Positions 21,490 to 29,191 of a stretch of 32,651 bases of DNA are shown piece after piece. Numbering within the stretch: the first letter of the stretch is position 1; every line of letters starts with the position of its first letter. Source of the stretch: an uncultured Pedosphaera sp. (lineage in GTDB: Bacteria > Verrucomicrobiota > Verrucomicrobiia > Limisphaerales > Pedosphaeraceae); NCBI GenBank assembly GCA_903918755.1, contig CAIXFN010000114.1, positions 1 to 32,651 of the forward strand. The letters are read 5' to 3'. A program made the position numbers and the translations under genes. The notes beneath the pieces were generated by a model. It saw only the letters and a list, made by a program, of their open reading frames with translations. It had not been told where the DNA came from and ran no database searches.

Positions 21490-22566
21490 TCACAGCTTGC
21501 CGCCCATTTTCAACTGGCTCTTGATCGATTCCGGATGCCGGGCGCGGCTCAACGCCGTGTCGTAGCTGATCAGGCACTGGCAATACAAGTCGAGAAGACA
21601 GTTGTCCATCAACACCATGCCCTCCTTGCCACCGGTTTGAATGATGTTTTCCAATTGATGCAGATTGCTCTCGCGGATGAGGTTGCGCACCGCGGGGGTG
21701 GCGACCAGGAATTCGCAGGCCAGCACCCGCCGGCAGCGGTCCGCCGAGGGGAGCAATTCCTGCGCGAGTACGCCTTGCAAGGTGTTGGCCAGTTGGAGCA
21801 CGATTTGCCGCTGCGCGCCCCCTTCGAACACCCCGACAATCCGCTCCAGCGCGTGCGTCACATTCGGCGAGTGCATTGTGGCCAGGACCAGGTGTCCGGT
21901 TTCCGCTGCCGCCAGCGCCGTGGCGATGGCCTCGTGGTCCCGGATTTCCCCCACCACAATTACATCCGGATCCTGCCGCAGCACATGGATGAGCGCGCGG
22001 TTGAAGGAATGGGTGTCCGTGAGGACTTCCTGTTGCACCACGATCGCGCGCTTATTCTCATGCACGAACTCGATGGGGTCCTCGATCGTGACGATTTTGC
22101 ACCGCCGTTCCCGGTTGATCAGGTCCACCAGGTAATTCAGGGTCGTGGTTTTTCCCGCCCCGGTCGGCCCGGTGATCAGAAACAAACCGTTGGGCCGCCG
22201 GGCGAGTTCATCCAGCCGTGGTGGTAGTCCCAGTTCCTCCCGGCCCGGAATCCGCTCGCCGCAGAACCGCAGACTGAGTTCCGGGAATCCATTCCGCTTG
22301 TAAAAAGTGATCCGCACCCGGCCGGCCGCGCGATGGAGCAGGGAGATGCATAATTCCCATTCGCGGTCAAAAGTGTCCTGCTGCGTGCTGGTCAGCAACC
22401 CGGCCACCATGGCGCGGATTTCCTCCCCCGCGAGCGGCGCCTCTCCGCCAAAGTGAATCTCCCCGTTGACGCGGAACGACGGGGGGACTCCGGCGATGAG
22501 ATGAAGATCAGACGCCATCTGTTCCGCCGCCTGCACGAGCAATCGCTCAAACTTGGGATGACTCAT
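21490..22566 (-). CDS. pilT: PilT-family type IV pilus retraction ATPase
   Basis: 358 residues from the ATG at 22566; a longer frame upstream overlaps the TPR gene and is not used. An N-terminal PAS-like domain (1-100, ASDLHLIAGVPPSFRVNG) precedes the RecA-like ATPase core. Visible motifs are Walker A GPTGAGKTT (133-141), the Asp box TIEDPIE (160-166), Walker B DPDVIVVGEIRD (199-210), the His box AETGHLVLATMHS, and the AVRNLIRE motif (292-299), which matches the AIRNLIRE signature tied to pilus retraction. It should power type IV pilus retraction (twitching) or a related fibre. Its ATG overlaps the TPR gene's TGA (ATGA), so the two are coupled. No pilin, PilB or PilC gene is present in the window. 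Confidence 0.93.
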   Translation of the reverse strand: MSHPKFERLLVQAAEQMASDLHLIAGVPPSFRVNGEIHFGGEAPLAGEEIRAMVAGLLTSTQQDTFDREWELCISLLHRAAGRVRITFYKRNGFPELSLRFCGERIPGREELGLPPRLDELARRPNGLFLITGPTGAGKTTTLNYLVDLINRERRCKIVTIEDPIEFVHENKRAIVVQQEVLTDTHSFNRALIHVLRQDPDVIVVGEIRDHEAIATALAAAETGHLVLATMHSPNVTHALERIVGVFEGGAQRQIVLQLANTLQGVLAQELLPSADRCRRVLACEFLVATPAVRNLIRESNLHQLENIIQTGGKEGMVLMDNCLLDLYCQCLISYDTALSRARHPESIKSQLKMGGKL

Positions 22567-23336
22567 GATCCGAACATTCCTCTTAGTCGGCCCCGCAACC
22601 GGGCGCCCAACCCTGTTTGCGCCACCTCCCGGCAAACGGCTGCGACCAGTGGCGAGCGCGGCAATAACTGTTGAGCCTGTTCCAGGGAAAGCCGCGCCGG
22701 CGTTACCAAACCCAGCGCCAACTGGCATTGGCCAGCCTGCAGCCAGAGCATGCCGCGGCCGGCGTCCAGGGCCAGACCTTGTTGCGCGTGCTGCATCGCC
22801 AGCACGATCCGGTGGTAAAAGAAATACGCGCGGGCGGTCAGCCACAAGGGAACCCAGTTGCCCGGGGCCAACCGCACCGCCTTCTCAAAACTGTATTCCG
22901 CCCTTTTCTCCTCCCGGGCCAGCAGGACATCCCCGCGCGCCAGCCAGATGTAGGGGGTGTTCCCTCGTTCCTCGATGGCATTGTCCGAGAACACGAGCGC
23001 CGCGTCCAGGTCGCCAGCCCGCGCCAGCGCCACCGCCTTCGCCGCGAGCAATTCGGCTTCGTTGGGGAATTGTTCCAAAGCCTTGTCCGCCCAGAGTCGC
23101 GCTTCCCTATATTCGCCCAATTCGATCAGCATGCGGACCTGTCCGGTCCAGGCCCCGGCGTACTTGGGATTGTGCTCCAGCACTTTCGACCAGGCGCGCA
23201 GGGCGGGTTCAAATTCTCCCTGGGTAAACGCCGTCTCCGCCTTCGCGACGAAATAAGTTTCATCCCGTAGTTCCTCCCGCCTGCCGGACTCGTCTTCCTG
23301 GTGTCCGCCAAATTCCAAATTGGAAAAACGGCTCAT
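22563..23336 (-). CDS. Tetratricopeptide repeat protein coupled to pilT
   Basis: 257 residues from the ATG at 23336 (MSRFSNLEFGG); a frame extending upstream to 23510 would run through the ArsR promoter. No signal peptide or membrane helix, so it is probably cytoplasmic. Helical repeats start at about residue 25 (YFVAKAETAFTQGEFEPALRAW) and continue in roughly 34-residue steps: YAGAWTGQVRMLIELGEYREARLWADKAL, AELLAAKAVALARAGDLDAALVFSDNAI, and PYIWLARGDVLLAREEKRAEYSFEKAV. A basic tail, RLRGRLRGMFGS, ends the protein. TPR proteins act as binding scaffolds; the four-base overlap with pilT suggests a partner or regulator of that ATPase, which is inference. No strong ribosome site is visible upstream. 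Confidence 0.82.
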   Translation of the reverse strand: MSRFSNLEFGGHQEDESGRREELRDETYFVAKAETAFTQGEFEPALRAWSKVLEHNPKYAGAWTGQVRMLIELGEYREARLWADKALEQFPNEAELLAAKAVALARAGDLDAALVFSDNAIEERGNTPYIWLARGDVLLAREEKRAEYSFEKAVRLAPGNWVPLWLTARAYFFYHRIVLAMQHAQQGLALDAGRGMLWLQAGQCQLALGLVTPARLSLEQAQQLLPRSPLVAAVCREVAQTGLGARLRGRLRGMFGS

Positions 23337-23402: not shown

Positions 23403-23432
23403 TTGACATGCAACCAAATGGTTGCATATTAT
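23403..23432 (+). promoter_or_regulatory. Promoter of the ArsR/SRPBCC operon, predicted leaderless
   Basis: A perfect -35, TTGACA (23403-23408), and a near-consensus -10, TATTAT (23427-23432), are 18 bases apart. Transcription starting 7-8 bases after the -10 would begin at about 23439-23440, exactly on the ATG of the ArsR gene. No Shine-Dalgarno sequence precedes that ATG, which supports a leaderless mRNA. Confidence 0.7.
23408..23427. promoter_or_regulatory. Operator palindrome within the promoter spacer
   Basis: ATGCAACC (23408-23415) and GGTTGCAT (23420-23427) are perfect 8-bp arms around AAAT. The palindrome fills the spacer between the -35 and -10, so a bound dimer would block RNA polymerase. 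The natural ligand is the ArsR-type dimer encoded immediately downstream, giving autorepression (inference from position and family). Confidence 0.72.
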
Positions 23433-23439
23433 CTCCGTA

Positions 23440-23775
23440 ATGAACGCAGTGTTCAAAGCGCTGGCGGACGAAAGCCGCCGCAAATTGCTCGATGAGTTGC
23501 ACCGGGACAATGGTCAGACCCTGACCCGCCTGTGCGGCCTCCTCGACATGACGCGGCAGGCCGTCACCAAGCACCTGGCGGTGCTGGAGGCGGCCAATCT
23601 TGTCACCACCGTGCGCTGCGGACGCGAAAAACTGCATTACCTCAATCCCGTGCCGTTGCAGGAGATCTACGACCGCTGGATTGGCAAGTACGAGCGCCCG
23701 CGCCTCTCGGCGTTGGGTGATTTGAAAAAGGATCTCGAAAGTGAAAACCTAACCAAAACCAAGACCAACCACTGA
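23440..23775 (+). CDS. ArsR-family winged-helix transcriptional regulator
   Basis: 111 residues from the ATG at 23440; a TTG at 23422 would sit inside the promoter and is rejected. The winged-helix fold begins with MNAVFKALADESRRKLLDELH. The recognition helix is in MTRQAVTKHLAVLEAANLV (about 36-54), followed by the wing VTTVRCGREKLHYLNPVPLQEIYDRW. There are no paired Cys metal sites, so it is not a classical arsenic sensor. This subgroup is commonly paired with SRPBCC proteins, as here (15 bases to the next start), and acts as an autorepressor. The signal that releases it is unknown. It is divergent from the TPR/pilT genes by 103 bases. Confidence 0.92.
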   Translation: MNAVFKALADESRRKLLDELHRDNGQTLTRLCGLLDMTRQAVTKHLAVLEAANLVTTVRCGREKLHYLNPVPLQEIYDRWIGKYERPRLSALGDLKKDLESENLTKTKTNH

Positions 23776-23790
23776 GAAAGGAAAATGCCC

Positions 23791-24297
23791 ATGCAAAAGC
23801 CCTCGTTCGTTTATGTCAGCTACATCCACACAACCCCGGAGAAACTCTGGGCCGCGCTCACCCAACCCGAATTCACCCGGAAATACTGGTTTGATTGCGG
23901 CATCGAATCCGATTGGAAGGTTGGCTCCCCGGTTCGATTCCGCCGCGATGGCGAACTCGCTATGGACCAGGTCCTGCTTGAATGCACGCCTCCCCGTCGT
24001 CTTGCTTACACCTGGAGCATGTGCGGCGACGCGGAAGCGAAAAGCGAACGTCCTTCCCGCGTGACCTTCGAATTGGAACCCGTGGGTGACCAAGCCGGCG
24101 CCTCCGCCCCCGTCGTCAAACTGACCGTCACGCACGACGATTTCCCGGCTGGCAGCGTGGTTTTCCCCCGCATCTCCCAAGGCTGGCCGGTGGTGCTCAG
24201 CAACCTCAAAACCCTGCTGGAATCTGGTCAACCCATGGTTACCACCTGGGAGTCTTGCGCCGCGACCACCAAAGACGAGGCTGTCGTCGCCGCCTAA
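23791..24297 (+). CDS. SRPBCC (AHSA1-like) domain protein
   Basis: 168 residues from the ATG at 23791, which has AAAGGA eight bases upstream; an ATG at 23785 is too close to that site. The fold is the START/Bet v1-like helix-grip (SRPBCC), recognised by YVSYIHTTPEKLWAALTQPEFTRKYW at the start, GSPVRFRRDG, and VLLECTPPRRLAYTW. Such proteins bind hydrophobic ligands or resemble Aha1, the activator of Hsp90 ATPase; the exact ligand is unknown. It is the second gene of the ArsR operon and ends just before a strong terminator, so these two genes are the whole unit. It may sense or remove the compound that inactivates the repressor, which is inference. Confidence 0.9.
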   Translation: MQKPSFVYVSYIHTTPEKLWAALTQPEFTRKYWFDCGIESDWKVGSPVRFRRDGELAMDQVLLECTPPRRLAYTWSMCGDAEAKSERPSRVTFELEPVGDQAGASAPVVKLTVTHDDFPAGSVVFPRISQGWPVVLSNLKTLLESGQPMVTTWESCAATTKDEAVVAA

Positions 24298-24315: not shown

Positions 24316-24350
24316 CGCCGTCCCGTGATCCCCTCACTGGACGGCGTTTT
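24316..24350 (+). terminator. Rho-independent terminator of the ArsR/SRPBCC operon
   Basis: CGCCGTCC (24316-24323) pairs with GGACGGCG (24339-24346), followed by TTTT. Inside, GTGA (24325-24328) pairs with TCAC (24334-24337), so the stem is effectively 12 bp with one mismatch. It begins 19 bases past the SRPBCC stop. This is the best intrinsic terminator in the window. Confidence 0.8.
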
Positions 24351-27964: not shown

Positions 27965-29191
27965 TCAGGGCTTGGCGCGGAGCTTGGAAATGATCGCTTC
28001 GAGACCACCTTCAACGGGTTCGATTTCCAAGGCGCGCTCGGCCGGGCGGATGGAGTTGGCGTTGGTAGGGGGATTGGCTGGCGCGGGCTTGGGTCGCCCG
28101 GAACTCGCCACGGGGGCCGGATCCAACCGCAGGGTAAGGGGCTTGATATCTTCCGCTTCGACCGTGTCAACGGGCGGTTCTTCCTCCACCTTGCTGCCCG
28201 GCAGATACCAGGATTTACGGTTGTCCAGCCAGGTGCGGTAGCGGGCATAAGTCCACATGCCATGCTCGGCGCCCGTTTCCATCACGGACATGATTTTGAA
28301 AAACTCGTTGCGTCGGATGAAACTCTTGATGGAATGGGTGGGCACGAGCACTTCACACTCGGGCACCTGGATTTTCAGTTCCGGGCGGAAGACGAGCCGC
28401 TGGGAAATGACGGCCACCACGCAGTCGGCGAGTTGCGCGCACACACTGTTCTGGATTTCCGAGGGGAACGCGGAGACCACGCGTTGCAGGGCTTCGCTGG
28501 CCGTGGCGGAGTGGGTCGTGGCGAGCACAAGGTGGCCCGTTTCGGCGGCGTTCAGGGTGAGCCGCATGGTTTCCGGATCCCGCATTTCACCGACCATCAA
28601 CACATCGGGATCCTCGCGCATGGCGTCGATGAGGGCTTGTTCGAAAGAGGGGGTGTCGCGTCCGACTTCGCGCTGGCGGATGTACGCGCGGTGCGGGCGG
28701 AATTGATACTCGATGGGGCTCTCGATGGTCACGATGTGCCGGGCTTCGACCAGGTTGATTTCCTGAATCATGGCCGCCATGGTCGAGGATTTGCCTGAAC
28801 CGGTGGGACCGCTGATGAGAATCAGTCCGTTGGTATGGGCGATGAAGCGCTTGAGCTCCGGGTGCAGGTTGAGCTTCTCCAGGGTGGCTTGGAAGGAACT
28901 GAGCAGGCGGATGGCCATGCCGACACCGCGGGAGCTTTGCAGGACATTGATTCGGCAACGGATCCCGGCAATGGTTTTGGAAAGATCGTAGGAGCGGCGT
29001 TCGAGGAAGCGGGGCCAATTTTCCGGGCCGACGATTTCCTGGGCTGCTTCCAGCAACATTTTGCGGGGCAGCGGGGTGCCGAGCATGCGCAACGAACCGC
29101 GAATGCGCACGGCGGCGGGCAGGCCCGGCTCCAGGTGCAGGTCGCTGGCTCCCTGCGCCCGGGCGGTCTCGATAAACGTCAGCAATTCCAT
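27965..29191 (-). CDS. PilT-like ATPase (second paralogue, PilU-like)
   Basis: 408 residues. The N-terminal domain begins LLTFIETARAQGASDLHLEPGLPAAVRI. ATPase motifs are Walker A GPTGSGKSS (128-136), Walker B DPDVLMVGEMRD, and the His box AETGHLVLATTHS. The Asp box reads TIESPIE, with Ser158 (AGC) where most PilT proteins, including the one at 21490, have Asp; its Glu residues remain. The AIRNLIRE retraction motif is replaced by SIKSFIRRNEF, as in PilU-like or accessory retraction ATPases. A Pro-rich C-terminal tail (about 330-408) is extra. It is divergent from the zinc-ribbon gene, and a TATATT-like box lies close to its start. It is likely a pilus accessory motor working with the first PilT, which is inference. 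Confidence 0.9.
   Translation of the reverse strand: MELLTFIETARAQGASDLHLEPGLPAAVRIRGSLRMLGTPLPRKMLLEAAQEIVGPENWPRFLERRSYDLSKTIAGIRCRINVLQSSRGVGMAIRLLSSFQATLEKLNLHPELKRFIAHTNGLILISGPTGSGKSSTMAAMIQEINLVEARHIVTIESPIEYQFRPHRAYIRQREVGRDTPSFEQALIDAMREDPDVLMVGEMRDPETMRLTLNAAETGHLVLATTHSATASEALQRVVSAFPSEIQNSVCAQLADCVVAVISQRLVFRPELKIQVPECEVLVPTHSIKSFIRRNEFFKIMSVMETGAEHGMWTYARYRTWLDNRKSWYLPGSKVEEEPPVDTVEAEDIKPLTLRLDPAPVASSGRPKPAPANPPTNANSIRPAERALEIEPVEGGLEAIISKLRAKP

Follow-up and report, generated by a model that had tools for sequence, protein, structure and literature searches.

The window analysed here, i.e. the whole stretch of 32,651 nucleotides from an uncultured Pedosphaera sp. (Verrucomicrobiota; contig CAIXFN010000114.1), harbors an arsR-type gene followed on the same strand by a gene coding for an AHSA1/SRPBCC-domain protein. 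Their promoter region and genes are organized as follows:

23403..23408, + strand: -35 hexamer TTGACA (direct reading and promoter scan)
23409-23426: spacer of 18 bases between the -35 and -10 hexamers
23408..23427, strandless: putative operator filling the spacer, a perfect 8+4+8 palindrome, ATGCAACC-AAAT-GGTTGCAT
23427..23432, + strand: -10 hexamer TATTAT (direct reading and promoter scan)
23433..23439, + strand: discriminator CTCCGTA, 7 bases, with the transcription start predicted at 23439 or 23440 (from spacing alone)
23440-23442, + strand: arsR start codon ATG, 7 bases past the -10 hexamer
23440..23775, + strand: arsR, an ArsR-type winged-helix regulator of 111 aa with a predicted leaderless ATG at 23440 (HTH_20 and NCBIfam NF033788 above cut-offs)
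23777..23784, + strand: Shine-Dalgarno (SD)-like AAAGGAAA ahead of the second gene, whose ATG is at 23785 or 23791 (direct reading)
23785..24297, + strand: AHSA1/SRPBCC-domain gene, the second cistron (Pfam AHSA1, E 2.6e-22)
24316..24346, + strand: strong hairpin followed by a short U run, a possible terminator of the two-gene unit (-21.2 kcal/mol, z -6.7)

An earlier sequence-only reading had described TTGACA, a perfect 8+4+8 palindrome and TATTAT as overlapping at 23403-23440. The letters, read directly, are exactly so, the palindrome (23408-23427) having one base in common with each hexamer. The promoter scored 11/12 against the consensus. A scan of 2.1 kb retrieved four promoter-like sites, versus 0.5 +/- 0.7 in shuffles: this promoter in two registers and a weak minus-strand site in two registers. 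The latter (23456-23428, TTGAAC-17-GATAAT, 9/12) overlaps the operator and faces a divergent TPR gene that starts at 23336 (-), upstream of arsR. As for the palindrome, the whole window contains six distinct perfect inverted repeats (arms of 8 or more bases, loops of 10 or fewer), and about 8 of such size are expected at 61% G+C (by arithmetic, not by shuffling). By itself it is not above chance; its position exactly between the hexamers and its conservation (see below) are. Transcription is predicted, from spacing, to start at the arsR ATG, and "leaderless" here denotes a leader predicted to be no longer than a few bases.

The first protein matched PF12840 (HTH_20; 43.3 bits for a cut-off of 27, E 3.5e-11), PF01022 (HTH_5; 23.5 bits for 22) and NF033788 (HTH_metalloreg; 60.1 bits for 55), and by its HTH_20/HTH_5 domains it is an ArsR/SmtB-type winged-helix regulator. 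Assignment to the SdpR autorepressor family (NF033789) was rejected, the score of 43.6 bits being far under the curated cut-off of 100. The CxC motif is a paired-cysteine site for metal sensing. A cysteine occurred at residue 32 in 59 of the 85 clusters of relatives described below; the window protein lacks the second cysteine of the motif, and metal sensing was not accepted on the name of the family model. The AHSA1 gene begins nine bases after the arsR stop, and among the 113 loci (window counted) with an identity of at least 60%, 110 have such a gene downstream of arsR on its strand. The hairpin behind it is absent from the output of a simple terminator scan. Two PilT-like ATPase genes were also noticed in the window from their translations, at about 21490-22500 (-) and 27965-29191 (-).

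Relatives were chosen from genome contigs by protein similarity only. Upstream of the best 80 of 544 matches, the string GCAACC-N4-GGTTGC was exact in 58 cases and carried one mismatch in 20 and two in one, so that the palindrome is indeed conserved beside orthologues, as the sequence-only reading would have it. L061 is the sole one of these 80 in which the left arm is lost. Of the 80, 77 have an in-frame ATG that follows the right arm by 10-17 bases, the remaining three displaying CTG (L030), TTG (L055) or GTG (L084) at the start position. Even for L065 and L068, which encode N-terminally extended proteins, an ATG occurs 11 bases past the arm. Sequence just 5' of the -35 hexamer was only 27% identical (24 clusters of a stricter set). 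Among the palindrome-bearing organisms were Verrucomicrobiota, Mesorhizobium and other Alphaproteobacteria, Phormidium and Calothrix (Cyanobacteriota) and Limnoglobus (Planctomycetota). Since the layout is common to related genes in several distant bacterial groups, it is taken as a real design. Both L019 and L061 have lost the left operator arm and the -35 hexamer and kept the right arm, -10 and ATG; their upstream sequences are identical and may come from one genome seen twice.

The regulon search by palindrome that had been proposed was run on the own genome (7.19 Mb), where the exact palindrome occurs once only and no regulon was seen. With two or three mismatches, 20 further places were found, versus 8 for a reversed control. 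In the genomes of six relatives, allowing one mismatch, seven sites were located at arsR genes (one each in five genomes and two in the Planctomycetota genome), and four other one-mismatch sites were retrieved. Because the exact palindrome is unique in its own genome, ArsR is most simply read as an autoregulator acting locally on the arsR-AHSA1 pair.

The sequence-only reading had also combined a leaderless start with the lack of an SD sequence. The former stands as a prediction, for which the evidence is the short distance from -10 to ATG; the latter turned out to be uninformative. A survey of 0.82 Mb of the own genome with a crude ORF-based gene set supplied 239 starts, at which SD motifs were not enriched (15/239, versus 12-19/239 at five shifted positions). 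A missing SD is therefore no evidence for leaderlessness in this genome and was rejected as such. SD-scarce Verrucomicrobia have already been described, namely Akkermansia muciniphila and strain IMCC26134 (PMC10783764). In the same survey, TANNNT peaked at a gap of 6 to the ATG (13/239; positions at gaps 20-44 averaged about 1.2); at gap 7, which is that of the window, the count was 0/239. The strict pattern TTGACA-N16-19-TANNNT-N5-9-ATG occurred 12 times in the own genome, versus once for the reversed pattern, and all 12 head open ORFs of at least 81 aa. Their gaps were 6 (six sites), 7 (three, window included) and 9 (three). Given this excess and the gap-6 peak, leaderless-type promoters look like an ordinary minority mode there. 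By their translations, these twelve promoters (L195-L206) precede Fur-, PadR-, AbrB-, HIT-, HisD- and KamA-like genes, among others. A -10-before-start criterion for leaderless genes was likewise used by Zheng 2011, whose main text mentions neither Verrucomicrobi nor ArsR (PMC3160421).

A clear contrast was observed between the two cistrons among relatives. In 34 of 37 clusters the AHSA1 start paired better with the anti-SD sequence than did the arsR start; without seven AHSA1 starts that lie well away from the arsR stop (four belong to fused frames), this held for 30 of 30. This contrast vanishes when the examined window is shifted.

Genome and plasmid searches provided a wider set of 166 loci, 160 of which were kept and grouped into 85 clusters below 85% identity (some loci were present twice via two collections, duplicates that the clustering absorbs). 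Left out were L189 (no tblastn hit) and L114, L119, L144, L181 and L193 (frameshift, truncated or misplaced match). Start positions were counted from the operator centre, c. The spacer-operator class, which shares the window's register of palindrome, -35 and -10, comprised 44 of the 85 clusters; its promoter matches are not independent since both hexamers are part of its definition, to which the start position does not belong. The first ATG or GTG was at c+19 to c+24 in 39 of these 44, where an in-frame ATG or GTG is expected by chance in about 10% (by arithmetic). In those 39 clusters the bases between -10 and start were near random (27% identity over 74 equal-length pairs), and their number stayed at 4-9. 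Among them are L161, L170 and L171, which lie on plasmids of Streptomyces and a Deinococcus. In L170 and L171, arsR is followed by a gene whose annotation is VOC protein instead of SRPBCC, and the annotated start of L161 is the second ATG. As to the other five clusters, L055 displayed TTG at the leaderless position, and L162, L163, L177 and L169 started at c+38 to c+69, the leader of L162 being shorter than its figure because the scan was centred on the first of two tandem palindromes. These four and L132 and L164 make up the leadered class (six of the 85 clusters), in which several display SD-like bases. A leaderless start is not obligatory among relatives. The leadered relatives L163, L177, L132 and L247 combine GCAGG- or GCAAG-type half-sites with Q44, and appear to represent a natural switch from leaderless to leadered alongside an operator change.

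Another palindrome was present in 32 clusters, 21 of which start at c+8 or c+10, a position within the right arm or abutting it; no clear palindrome was seen in 9 of the 85 clusters. The Mesorhizobium-type loci (33, forming one cluster) displayed two ATGs each, at c+19/c+25 in 32 and c+18/c+24 in one, the first of which is perhaps too close to the -10 hexamer. In a tree of the 85 proteins, where 36 of 82 inner branches are under 80% support and the labels of the six leadered clusters and of L055 were set by hand, the window's group of 40 was composed of 35 spacer-operator leaderless and 5 leadered clusters. Besides, the arsR frame exceeded 180 codons in 13 of the 85 clusters (L138, L149, L153, L156, L157, L160, L161, L162, L169, L178, L179, L180 and L186), which are probably fusions of ArsR to a second domain.

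Residues of the recognition helix were compared with half-site bases in 71 of the 85 clusters, the nine without palindrome and five doubtful ones (L149, L153, L164, L166 and L180, judged by hand) being left out. R39 occurred with G1 in 69/69 and L39 with T1 in 2/2. Q40 went with C2 in 41/41, other residues with T2 (29) or A2 (1). K44 was associated with C5 in 58/58 (in both half-sites in 55, in one in 3), and Q or L44 with G or T in 13/13. Nineteen distant relatives added later displayed K44 with C5 in 19/19, L39 with T1 in 17/17 and R39 with G1 in 2/2; P40 was found with T2 in both half-sites in 10/11 and A40 with C2 in both in 5/6, so that C2 does not require Q40. A second later set comprised 28 loci, many of which nearly duplicate earlier ones. 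Here, L252 and L253 had no operator, the two half-sites of L254 (Q40) differed, one with T2 and one with C2, L273 combined N44 with C5, and the other 24 fitted the code by reading. To the eye the pattern is strong, statistically it is modest, since there are few independent changes (on well-supported branches, 2 and 1 pairs) and the tree test, being without power, could not have reached significance. The covariation supports ArsR itself as the protein that would bind the palindrome. With the conservation of the palindrome beside relatives, it upholds, as a prediction, the autoregulated switch proposed at the outset.

Promoter evidence differed among operator classes, being strong in the spacer class, partly by definition, and weaker where the operator covers the start region or centres on the ATG. 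Among the 13 members of the GTGAC/GTAAC class, 11 displayed a TTGACA-like site, in 10 of the 11 at 33-41 bases before the start versus 23% in shuffles; their -10 signal was poor (3/13, versus 2/13 at a 12-base shift). In the GTTAT class (8), TATAAA ends 8 bases before the ATG in seven loci and 6 bases in one, a -10 signal that is unspecific because 5/8 also score at a 12-base shift; -35 sites were in place in only 3/6. The six leadered clusters gave 0/4 TTGACA-like sites at -41 to -33. The distant relatives added later were twenty from the same taxonomic order as the window, 19 of them with a readable match. In 17 of these 19, the ATG start codon itself forms the centre of a palindrome with TTAACC or TCAACC half-sites; operators of this kind are therefore partly coding. 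The same pattern was seen in L278 (no tblastn match), L120 and L022, the last being a second relative inside the window's own genome. Altogether, L276-L285, L287-L294, L022 and L120 are noted as ATG-centred ArsR paralogues of Verrucomicrobiota. At the ATG-centred loci an AT-rich hexamer ends 7 bases before the ATG and was scored as -10 in 14/20 versus 2/20 at a 12-base shift, a count that predates the strand correction of two rows (L290 and L292). Their -35 signal was weak (6/13 scoring sites at -41 to -33).

The family is sparsely distributed. At E 1e-10, 11 of 146 genomes from the order and 11 of 387 from the phylum had a match to the arsR-type gene; at E 1e-15, so did 32 of 246 from the Limnoglobus phylum, 17 of 240 from the Mesorhizobium class and 3 of 194 from the Calothrix phylum (centre genomes included in all counts). 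ArsR identity to relatives in other phyla was 70-80%. Patchy occurrence and such identity between phyla make it likely that horizontal transfer played a part, and it may explain some, perhaps much, of the sharing; "conserved" does not mean vertical inheritance throughout. Phylum labels were taken from database records, where those of MAGs may be wrong, and are absent for 19 of the 39 leaderless-distance clusters. A phage feature was ruled out: viral contigs contained no exact palindrome, and the protein search retrieved one relative there and one weak match in phages.

From the layout, its conservation, the covariation between recognition helix and operator and the contrast in SD pairing, all of which are direct observations, the locus is probably an autorepressed two-gene unit with a leaderless message beginning at the arsR ATG. 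RNA polymerase would bind TTGACA/TATTAT and start within about one base of this ATG, the message running on through the AHSA1 gene to the hairpin. An ArsR dimer on the palindrome between the hexamers would exclude polymerase and so limit the protein's own level, until a ligand, perhaps also handled by the AHSA1 protein, releases it. A leaderless arsR combined with an internal ribosome site for the second gene would hold the repressor at a low level compared with the AHSA1 protein. In this scheme we infer the binding, the repression, the exact 5' end, the co-transcription, the ligand and the repressor:AHSA1 ratio.

Autorepression could also operate on a message with a leader, if transcription started upstream from another promoter or translation began at a later codon. 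The six leadered clusters, several with SD-like bases, and the empty gap-7 position among the 239 surveyed starts lend some weight to this version. Yet, it seems unlikely, since in 39 of 44 clusters the promoter flanking the operator allows hardly any leader and the 2.1 kb scan disclosed no other promoter-like site on the + strand.

Two further explanations detach the palindrome from ArsR. It might be the operator of another transcription factor, or serve the divergent gene, as the nearby TPR gene and the weak minus-strand site overlapping it would suggest. However, no TPR gene was found at any of the 164 other oriented loci within their flanks (some of which are short), the palindrome follows arsR, the helix residues covary with the half-site bases, and the genome contains a single exact copy; this is very improbable. 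Least credible of all is a chance palindrome within an ordinary promoter. The number of perfect repeats in the window, six for some eight expected, would allow it, but at most two mismatches in 79 of the best 80 of 544 relatives, next to a mere 27% identity just upstream of -35, speak against it. The autorepressed unit with a leaderless message remains the preferred interpretation.

A broader proposal, which we advance tentatively and rate a shade below an even call, is that a leaderless or nearly leaderless start is the selected constant of this ArsR lineage, along which the operator slides and for which the helix code can be read (R39-G1, Q40-C2, K44-C5). The registers would be the -35/-10 spacer (c+19 to c+24), the region from the promoter up to the start codon (c+8 or c+10) and the start codon itself (c+0, in Verrucomicrobiota paralogues). 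If true, repressor scarcity through leaderless translation would be a design principle common to autorepressors of several phyla. Leaderless messages in bacteria are usually discussed one genome at a time. In the present case a leaderless-type start seems to persist within a single gene family across Verrucomicrobiota, Planctomycetota, Cyanobacteriota and Alphaproteobacteria, as well as in individual plasmid-borne relatives from Actinomycetota and a Deinococcus, with its surroundings randomised. The family thereby offers a direct way to test why leaderless starts are so frequent among repressors. Likewise, the table of helix residues and half-sites gives testable predictions of operator specificity for ArsR proteins that are called "metalloregulator" by a family model without a metal test.

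The leaderless layout common to several phyla and the sliding operator look new: no report of either was found in the open-licence papers searched, nor any relevant match to the operator strings. The kind of unit is already known, from the autorepressor Rv2034 and the leaderless acuR operon. The closest characterised counterpart, Rv2034 of Mycobacterium tuberculosis, is an ArsR regulator whose autorepression was shown by reporter and footprint and whose DNA binding was not inhibited by the metals tested (PMC3338718). It resembles the window's protein in regulator class, in its operon with Rv2035, a gene of the polyketide_cyc2 type, and in an 8+4+8 palindrome with a 4-base loop adjoining the start codon (PMC3338718). 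Differences are the half-site, CCGTAAGT, a palindrome nearer the start (dyad about 13 bases before the GTG, as counted on the printed footprint with the last GTG as start) and further targets such as dosR; the word "leaderless" is absent from the main text of that paper (PMC3338718). In the window, a same-strand SRPBCC/AHSA1 gene follows arsR, and the 8+4+8 palindrome comes with covariation, its binding being putative; the unit thus appears to be of the Rv2034-like kind, with another half-site and an operator further upstream.

The acuR-acuI-dddL operon of Rhodobacter sphaeroides, whose 5' end was mapped exactly at the repressor AUG, likewise has the repressor first and downstream genes that are translated better than the leaderless repressor (PMC3017554), which the stronger SD pairing at the second gene across our relatives matches. 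AcuR is of the TetR type and responds to acrylate (PMC3017554), and the likeness is one of layout, operators left aside. Adjacent acuR- and acuI-like genes also occur in other Proteobacteria and in one Verrucomicrobium, and lambda cI and Tn1721 tetR are cited in the same paper as leaderless repressor messages (PMC3017554). The latter two share the leaderless repressor with the unit described here, but their proteins and operators are unrelated to the window's.
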